This document shows, piece after piece, positions 55,088 through 57,381 of a stretch of DNA of 57,381 nt (positions are counted from its first letter, which is position 1; the number at the start of each line of letters is the position of its first letter). The notes beneath the pieces were generated by a model. The model was not told where the DNA came from. It did not search any database and worked only from the letters and a program-made list of their open reading frames with translations. Source of the stretch: an uncultured Spirochaetaceae bacterium (GTDB lineage Bacteria > Spirochaetota > Spirochaetia > Sphaerochaetales > Sphaerochaetaceae); assembly GCA_944392975.1 (NCBI GenBank), contig CALXYN010000007.1, positions 1 to 57,381 of the forward strand. Reading direction: 5' to 3'. A program made the translations under genes and the position numbers.

Positions 55088-55353
55088 ATGACTATGCAGC
55101 TTGTGACAGTATCTTCAAAAGGTCTCAGATAGCCATTCCAGTAAGCTATCGTAAAGCCTTGTCAATAAAGGAAGGAAGCCAGCTTGTAATTTATTCAGAT
55201 GGTGAAAATATCATTCTGAAGCCTGTTGAACTTCCATCAGAGGATAAGCTTTCAGCCGCACTAGCAAAAGCCAAGGAATATGCAGAGAACGAAGGGCTTA
55301 CAGAAGAGGATATCAAGAAAGCAATCCTGCAATACAGAAAGAACCTAAGATAA
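55088..55353 (+). pseudogene. AbrB/MazE-type antitoxin with a frameshift
   Basis: The frame from the ATG at 55088 reads MTMQLVTVSSKG and then hits a stop. Two extra bases (CT, near 55124) separate it from the continuing frame QIAIPVSYRKALSIKEGSQLVIYSDGENI...ILQYRKNLR. Together they make a standard SpoVT/AbrB swapped-hairpin antitoxin of about 87 aa. The start codon after the stop (ATG ACT ATT TGT GTG at 55361) resembles the beginning of a PIN toxin but ends after six codons, so the toxin seems to be lost. The gene lies between the two 190-bp repeats. Confidence 0.75.
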
Positions 55354-55555
55354 TAACCCAATGACTATTTGTGTGTTATAAGTGATCTCCATATACGGAT
55401 TTGTTGACGAATAACAACTTCTAGCCGTATTATTGAGATAGAAAGAGTCGCCAGCAAGACGGTGGCCTTAGATTAACGAAGATATCTCCGCTTACCTTTT
55501 GGCTTTTGGACGGCGGAGATCTTTTATATCCTTAATCAGGCCGAGAACCTCTTTC
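55354..55555. other. gap with left arm of a long inverted repeat and a nested hairpin
   Basis: No gene. GAGTCG-C-CAGCA and AGACGGTGGCCT (55445-55468) are complementary to AGGCCACCGTCT, TGCTG and CGACTC (55663-55692) in repeat copy 2. A nested 8-bp stem, ATCTCCGC (55484-55491) with GCGGAGAT (55513-55520), lies in between, so transcripts could form a large folded structure. Confidence 0.55.
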
Positions 55556-55746
55556 AAGATCCGCAGGAGCACCAGAGCAAGCTCTAATACTACTTTCATT
55601 CTGGTCTTTCACCTCCTTTCCTATGGTGGATTAGGAAGATTGCTCTCCCTCTACAGGATCAGAGGCCACCGTCTCTCATCTGCTGACGACTCAGAAATCT
55701 TATCAAATCAATCAGATAGGCTTCAAGATGATTTCGGAAAAGCAAT
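55556..55746. repeat. degenerate 190-bp repeat, copy 2
   Basis: Second copy of the repeat described at 54830. It includes the 3' end of the integrase gene (stop at 55723) and the right arm of the long inverted repeat. Direct orientation relative to copy 1. Confidence 0.8.
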
Positions 55747-57161
55747 GATATTGCTCGAAACCTTCCCAATCTGAAGAAGCCTTTCCCTTACCTCGTGCGT
55801 ATAGTTGTCACTCATTCTCTCGCTCTGGCGTCCTACAATGAAACGGAGATTATTGTCATCAATCTCACCTCGAAGCATCGAATTGAAGAAATGTCTTAGA
55901 GAATGGAAATCTATGTTCCTTTCTTTCCTCTTCTCCTCCGTGATTCCGATAGCAGCAAGAGCCGAATAATAATAATTGTTGATATAGCTTCCTGCTATCG
56001 GAGTATCAATGGAGTTATCAGACCAGAAGATAAGGCCATTCTTATGTGGATTTGAATCAGCCATATTCACAAGCTCCTCAGCCAATGTTTTTGATACAGG
56101 AACGTGCCTTACTCTCTTCCCTTTTGTAGAGTTAAAGCCATCAGTCTTAGCAAAGTTCTCTTTCACTGTAATGATAGCCTAATCCTCATATTCAACGTTG
56201 TTCTCAACGAACTCGATTGCCTCCTTTCTCAGGGCTCGTATCTCTCCTTGTCTCATGCCTGTTGTGGCAGCAAGTGCGACAGCAAGATAGATCTTCATGC
56301 TGATGCGTCCTGCAAATCCTTCTTTTCTCAGATATTCAATAACAGCTTCGACTTCACTCTTAGTCGGAATGCCTCTGTTTTTCTGATCCCTCTGAAGCAT
56401 TTTTACGTTCTGCATCGGATTTGCCTTGATTATTCCTCTTGCAAAAGCCTCATTCAAAGGCTTCTGCACAGAGAGGATGACATTGTTGATTGTCGCTGCG
56501 GATATCTTTCCTTCATCGATGAGCGATACGATTACGGTCTCAATATCGTTCTGGGTAATCTCAGAAAGCTTCAGAGATGGATTGATTCTCGGCATGAAGT
56601 TACGTTTGAATGTTCCAAACATGTTAAGACAGTAATCTCTTCCGATGCTTCCCTTCTTCGTCTTATTCTTAAGCTTGACATAGGATGAGTTATCGAAGTC
56701 CCAGAAGTTTAGGACATACTCAACAAAGTTCGGAGACTTCATTTCCTTCTTTGTCAGACCTTCCTCATAGGCTCTCACAGCGATTGCAGCAGCTGCACTT
56801 CTTGTTCCGATACGACGGAAGCTGTCATCTCCAAGCTTGCTTCTCAGGGTTTCTATACTAAGTCCAGGATCATAGCTCTTTTTCCTGAATTCCCAAATAT
56901 AAACTATGTATTAGCACATACTGAAAATAACTTTTTTCAATATAATAAGATATAAATTTGAGATCTGATTGGTATAGTTAAGAATATCAACTATGCAAAT
57001 TTTAGTTAGTATTCGAGTTAATTTCTTATATATTAATAATTTGGTATTCTGAATCATAGTTATAAAATGGGAATTCAGGTCTTTTTCTCAGGATTCCAGA
57101 AGCGAACATAATAGTAGACACCTTTTGCTCTGCGTCTTTTGTACAATGAAAATCTGACCAT
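55723..57161 (-). pseudogene. tyrosine recombinase (integrase), broken by an amber codon and a 196-bp insertion
   Basis: Reconstructed from three pieces on one strand. The N-terminus (57161-57087) reads MVRFSLYKRRRAKGVYYYV and FWNPEKK; it has AAGGAGG 6 nt upstream. The insertion follows, then SYDPGLSIETLRSK and onward to 55723. An in-frame TAG (56179-56181) sits between VEYED and AIITVKEN. Removing the insertion with one target copy and ignoring the amber codon gives about 411 aa. Catalytic parts: GMRQGEIRAL, HSLRH, and the Tyr in SDNYTHE; the GH motif is GR (VGRQS). It is a non-functional phage-type integrase next to a tRNA gene. Confidence 0.88.
56877..57086. mobile_element. 196-bp MITE-like element with 7-bp target duplication
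   Basis: The element (56884-57079) is A/T-rich, noncoding, and bounded by inverted repeats CCTGAATTCCCA (56884-56895) and TGGGAATTCAGG (57068-57079); the match extends more weakly to 25 bp with ACTATG. Perfect 7-bp direct repeats TCTTTTT flank it (56877-56883 and 57080-57086). Precise excision plus one duplication copy restores the integrase codons. No transposase is encoded, so it must have been moved by a family member elsewhere. Family not identified. Confidence 0.85.
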
Positions 57162-57313: not shown

Positions 57314-57381
57314 TGGGCGATGGCAGGATCGAACTGCCGACTTCCACGATGTCAACGTGACACTCTCCCGCTGAGTTAACC
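57314..57381 (-). tRNA. tRNA-Val(GAC), 5' end cut by the window edge
   Basis: On the minus strand the D arm (ACTCAGC... GGGAGAGT), the anticodon stem TCACG/CGTGG with loop TTGACAT (anticodon GAC), the T arm (GGCAGTTCGATCCTGCC) and acceptor strand ATCGCCC with discriminator A can be read. The first few bases of the acceptor stem are outside the window. No CCA is encoded; the cca gene supplies it. It is the probable integration target of the neighbouring recombinase. Confidence 0.92.

Follow-up and report, generated by a model that had tools for sequence, protein, structure and literature searches.

A 196-bp MITE with IS1634-type ends in a tRNA-adjacent integrase pseudogene of a gut spirochaete, and its probable partner transposase

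Several MITEs have been paired with an insertion sequence (IS), such as MITECca01 with ISCca4 of the IS982 family (PMC9769881) and a 187-bp Microcystis MITE with ISL3 (PMC11448079). Elements of the IS1634 family measure 1500-2000 bp, have ends of the form C-----YT and typically generate AT-rich target duplications of 5-6 bp, those of IS1549 and IS1634 being of 8-514 bp (PMC2266710). DDE elements can also be found at a particular genomic landmark, and the transposases of TnGBS / p-MULT target positions 15-17 bp upstream of -35 boxes (PMC3942029). Here we describe a MITE located in the window, which is the whole stretch of DNA analysed (57,381 nucleotides, contig CALXYN010000007.1 of an uncultured Spirochaetaceae bacterium, assembly GCA_944392975.1). 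This MITE of a gut spirochaete is ordinary in kind and apparently new as a family, and its ends suggest that it probably borrows the transposase of an IS1634-family element.

The element and the integrase that it interrupts

The element occupies positions 56884..57079 (plus strand), as seen from the sequence and from its other copies, and is flanked by two copies of the target-site duplication TCTTTTT, read directly at 56877..56883 (left) and 57080..57086 (right). The coordinates, the 196-bp size, the perfect 12-bp ends and the duplications given by the first-pass annotation were exact on re-reading. The left terminal inverted repeat, with its subterminal AACTATG, lies at 56884..56908 (plus) and the right one at 57055..57079 (minus). 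The two ends, CCTGAATTCCCA and TGGGAATTCAGG, match as inverted repeats at 12/12 positions, and 20 of the 25 outer nucleotides pair between them, a value reached by none of 200,000 shuffles of the same composition. The motif AACTATG is found at element positions 19 and 106, and an internal palindrome, TATAGTTAAGAATATCAACTATG, at element positions 90-112 (56973..56995, plus); by alignment, its counterpart in full-length ISs carries the transposase start codon. The interior had been described as noncoding and A/T-rich, and indeed no long open reading frame was found in any of the six frames and the GC content is 23%, versus 42% in the flanks. Terminal inverted repeats, a target duplication, a small size and the lack of a transposase gene together make this element a MITE.

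The interrupted gene is a tyrosine integrase pseudogene (55723..57161, minus strand) that carries the MITE after codon 27 and whose Pfam matches (PF13102 and PF00589) fall in its two open pieces. When the flanks are joined without one of the duplications, the sequence reads ...EKK-SYDPG... within a single 411-codon frame, save a TAG at codon 260, so that the in-frame join previously proposed is borne out. The integrase restored in this way had been called normal, which it is not: the TAG (56179-56181, minus strand, seen by comparing the joined frame with relatives) and a change from His to Arg at residue 377 both persist. In the comparison set, composed of the seven close relatives found in the family, codon 260 encodes Gln in 7/7 and residue 377, in the VGHQSE motif, is His in 7/7. 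Because of the TAG and of H377R, the island integrase is decayed independently of the MITE, whose insertion was not necessarily the earliest lesion.

It had also been asked whether the intact integrases of relatives carry the insert in frame: six intact orthologues (84-91% identical) are devoid of it and align without gap, over 411 amino acids, across the empty site, and the seventh relative (L267), in which the frame has a separate break, also lacks the insert. Of the "recent, precise insertion" initially put forward, the precision is thus established by the empty sites and the duplication; its recency is only plausible, given the perfect duplication and a 94%-identical copy elsewhere. The same empty sites already refute the reading of the element as an immobile sequence, either a chance palindrome or a conserved regulatory or RNA hairpin within the integrase gene. 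Folded as single-stranded DNA, the element does form a strong, long hairpin (z = -3.2), which speaks for such a reading; however, copies are present at unrelated loci, the flanking duplication is exact and no Rfam match was found within the element at the gathering threshold, and we regard its immobility as having a negligible probability.

A tRNA-Val(GAC) gene, whose 5' end is cut by the contig end, is located at 57314..57381 (minus strand). Its 3' end faces the integrase, and 234 bp separate the tRNA gene from the MITE. The loci of four relatives show the same arrangement as the window, with a complete tRNA-Val gene about 150 bp upstream of the integrase. Two small features were noticed by eye on the other side of the integrase. 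At about 55088-55353 (plus strand), a short AbrB/SpoVT-like protein (QIAIPVSYRKALSIKEG...), with an apparently frameshifted start, is a possible antitoxin remnant of the island. At about 55489-55599 (minus strand), a possible 35-residue hydrophobic peptide (MKVVLELALVLLRILKEVLGLIKDIKDLRRPKAKR) is preceded by a strong ribosome-binding site and neighboured by inverted GGCCACCGTCT sequences; it could be a small membrane peptide or a type I toxin of the bacterium's island.

Copies, full-length partners and proposed origin

The genome to which the window belongs (G000) contains one full copy of the MITE and one old half copy. Another species of the same genus (G006) carries, at a locus unrelated to this one, a full copy that is 94% identical and has an 8-bp duplication, ATACCGAT; a divergent copy with a 6-bp duplication (ATACAA) is present in G032, and further copies were found in G069 (two), G067 (one) and G003 (one). 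A profile built from five full copies and searched against 139 genomes of the family added a 196-bp copy of a third kind (G010:C5), whose ends are those of IS subgroup A2. The search for further copies suggested by the first-pass annotation has therefore revealed a family dispersed at unrelated loci in G000, G003, G006, G010, G032, G067 and G069, with few copies per genome. Where these loci appear in named public records, the records are assemblies of metagenome type from Spirochaetaceae/Spirochaetales. A half MITE occupies the same site in two species (L034 in G019:C159 and L035 in G000:C3), behind a degraded tRNA-Asp gene or fragment, which we take as evidence that some copies are old and were either inherited vertically or carried along with an island.

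At several two-ended copies no duplication could be recognised, and long duplications (up to 700 bp) of the kind known for IS1549/IS1634, sought at the copies without short ones, were not found. The end pattern had no match in IMG/VR; a single Saprospiraceae match was returned by the end-pattern search. Some candidates were discarded: a search for the parent in the own genome with the 12-bp end alone gave matches that looked like chance, two loci of G005 (L018 and L020) matched only in the AT-rich interior and missed the ends, and the profile matches G018:C43 and G355:C9 were without proper ends.

Full-length elements bearing ends of this kind had also been proposed as a target of search; they do exist and belong to the IS1634 family. 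Within the starting set, formed by the DDE_Tnp_1 transposase loci of the genus, one IS (G032:C4) has the ends CCTGAATTCCCA and CCTGCATTCCCA, a length of 1797 bp and a 549-codon frame. Homologous ISs, 1774-1797 bp long and bounded by ends like CCTGAATTCTGCTTTAATAACTATG, are present in G000 (the own genome, contig 56), G003, G017, G019 and G071, and the end type CCTGMATTC...AACTATG or AACTAGG is common to these five genomes and G032. Their lengths lie within the 1500-2000 bp range of the family, and their ends (CCTGAATT, CCTGCATT, CCTGAACT), with Y at position 7 and T at position 8, fit C-----YT. The three transposases tested against the NCBIfam model of the IS1634 transposase (NF033559) scored 236.5, 242.6 and 233.9 bits, all more than double the cut-off of 100 bits; the D, D and E positions are conserved in the aligned transposases, and the frames of the full-length ISs are intact. 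Duplications are of 6 bp (CTTTAC) at the IS of G071 and of 6, 7 and 8 bp at three MITEs; no recognisable duplication was seen at the other intact ISs. A weak end match in a different transposase (L068) was rejected.

The left ends of these ISs have a constant order, namely the terminal repeat, AACTATG (AACTAGG in subgroup B), 75-100 bp, and a palindrome ending in AACTATG, the ATG of which is the in-frame start codon of the transposase. Positions 1-112 of the MITE are colinear with these left ends through the start ATG, and a profile made solely from the five MITEs retrieves IS left ends (G019:C144, 7.5e-6; G211:C16, 7.6e-6; G032:C4, 2.9e-4). From this colinear layout and these matches, the MITE would most simply be an internal-deletion derivative of an IS1634 element that has lost its transposase gene. 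Positions 113-171 have no match in the ISs seen, and none of the ISs found is identical to the MITE ends over 25 bp (at best 21/25), so the exact parent is not among them. Different kinds of MITE bear the ends of different IS subgroups, as illustrated by the G010 copy. The MITE itself encodes no transposase and is a derivative rather than a member of the IS1634 family.

The MITE-like nature initially suspected is thus supported by the copies in relatives, the ISs with matching ends and the empty sites, and we consider it highly probable that the element is an IS1634-family shell mobilised in trans by a DDE transposase of this family. According to this proposal, an IS1634-family IS would have lost its transposase gene and kept its left end, its control palindrome and its right terminal repeat, with an AT-rich stretch of about 60 bp linking the kept ends. 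A transposase supplied in trans would recognise the CCTGAATT...AACTATG ends, excise or copy the MITE and insert it with a short target duplication; here, it would have landed at codon 28 of an integrase whose island is inserted at tRNA-Val. That the IS1634-family transposase actually moves the MITE is what we infer.

A MITE belonging to a different DDE family whose ends resemble these (for example an IS4, ISPepr1-type or IS256-type element that is unsampled) would account for the 7- and 8-bp duplications of two MITE copies, as the ISPepr1 subgroup of IS4 makes duplications of 7-8 bp (PMC2266710). However, the ISPepr1 consensus YT-AA-YTT misfits CCTGAATT, which the IS1634 form C-----YT fits (PMC2266710), both the ends and the entire left part (112 bp) correspond to IS1634-family elements found in the same genus, and the other transposases checked in the genus are without such ends. 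We therefore hold an origin from another family to be quite improbable and retain IS1634.

Clustering on the 3' side of tRNA genes

Each distinct IS or MITE site was scored for a tRNA 3' end (34-mer, 28 matches or more) no farther than 500 bp from a visible element end. Such an end was found at 18 of the 34 sites, at a distance of 54-431 bp, with a window size and a threshold that were set after the pattern had been seen. At every positive site the tRNA 3' end faces the element, the opposite orientation never being found. As a control, a tRNA 3' end is present anywhere along the locus in 1/57 loci of other transposases of the same genus (Fisher p = 7e-9 for the IS/MITE group versus other transposases; the test assumes independent sites, an assumption that holds only roughly). 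At random, about 1% of sites would be expected to have one (44 tRNA genes in 2.07 Mb). Later additions, that is the G010 MITE, located 194 bp 3' of a tRNA-Val and the sole hit examined after the settings were made, and two one-sided IS ends without tRNA, bring the count to 19/37. A further two MITEs follow tRNA-Asp 3' ends that are too decayed to reach the threshold. Independent insertions of IS subgroups and of MITEs are found at the same tRNA (Phe, Asp, Val and Ala), in both element orientations. The clustered loci include L001, L030, L031, L033, L074, L076, L077, L159, L170 and L171.

Integrase genes were recognised by Pfam in or beside four sites (the window, G069:C42, G000:C56 and G026:C9), some of the matches being weak, and by reading of the N-terminal sequence in G025:C22 and G035:C25; the second ORF of L135, also considered as an integrase, was rejected as an IS21 IstB gene. 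In G003 and G019, the tRNA 3' ends that precede the sites are duplicated, as is typical where islands attach, and at the tRNA-Phe locus, compared in 30 genomes, the IS/MITE group lies behind terminators unlike the common native one. Because of these integrase genes, duplicated tRNA 3' ends and non-native terminators, the landmark of the group is the tRNA/att/integrase junction of islands.

This clustering could result from target choice, from riding with islands or from better survival at this junction. We give somewhat better than even chances to the absence of any target choice, the elements riding tRNA-integrated islands or surviving best in the dispensable att-integrase region. Many sites (the window, L028, L124, L126, L077, L128, L034, L035, L029, L138 and L139) bear the hallmarks of an integrase or of a tRNA 3' fragment, which is consistent with this, as is, for riding, the identical far flank of the IS in L138 (G003:C40) and L170 (G297:C5), which belong to two genera and whose common flank suggests the transfer of an island between genera with the IS aboard. 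Against it stand the concentration of the sites at 54-431 bp from the tRNA end, with no spread over the length of islands, and the rarity of tRNA 3' ends (1/57) at other IS families of the same genomes, both of which weigh on plain riding in particular. It is tentatively conceivable, with chances that we put at about one in three, that the IS1634 group and its MITEs prefer to insert within the few hundred bp directly downstream of tRNA genes or tRNA 3'-end att sites, and would so recurrently hit the attachment/integrase junction of islands and could disable their excision. No description of a preference of IS1634 elements for tRNA neighbourhoods was found in the open-licence literature searched; the clustering of this IS/MITE group was unexpected and deserves a second look.

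Comparison with known systems

This locus provides an IS1634-derived MITE family in spirochaetes and, as its probable partner, a transposase with one copy in the window's own genome. If target choice were true, the group would be a case of a DDE element in bacteria that is directed to the vicinity of tRNA genes, and would offer a natural route to islands locked in place through the loss of their integrase.

The partners share with the IS1634 family (NF033559; PMC2266710) the C-----YT ends, the length of 1500-2000 bp and the NF033559 transposase; the duplications that could be recognised are, as in the family, short and of variable length. By contrast, the window element has no transposase, the 7- and 8-bp duplications exceed the typical 5-6 bp, and clustering downstream of tRNA genes is undescribed for the family in the literature searched. 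MITECca01 and the Microcystis MITE resemble the window MITE in their size (about 190-240 bp), noncoding nature, ends of a coexisting IS, short duplications and hairpin, whereas the window MITE differs from them by its IS1634 parentage, its low copy number and its presence in several species of a spirochaete genus. Finally, the group has in common with the TnGBS / p-MULT transposases (PMC3942029) that DDE elements are found at a particular genomic landmark, which is here the 3' side of tRNA genes, at a loose distance and with both element orientations.
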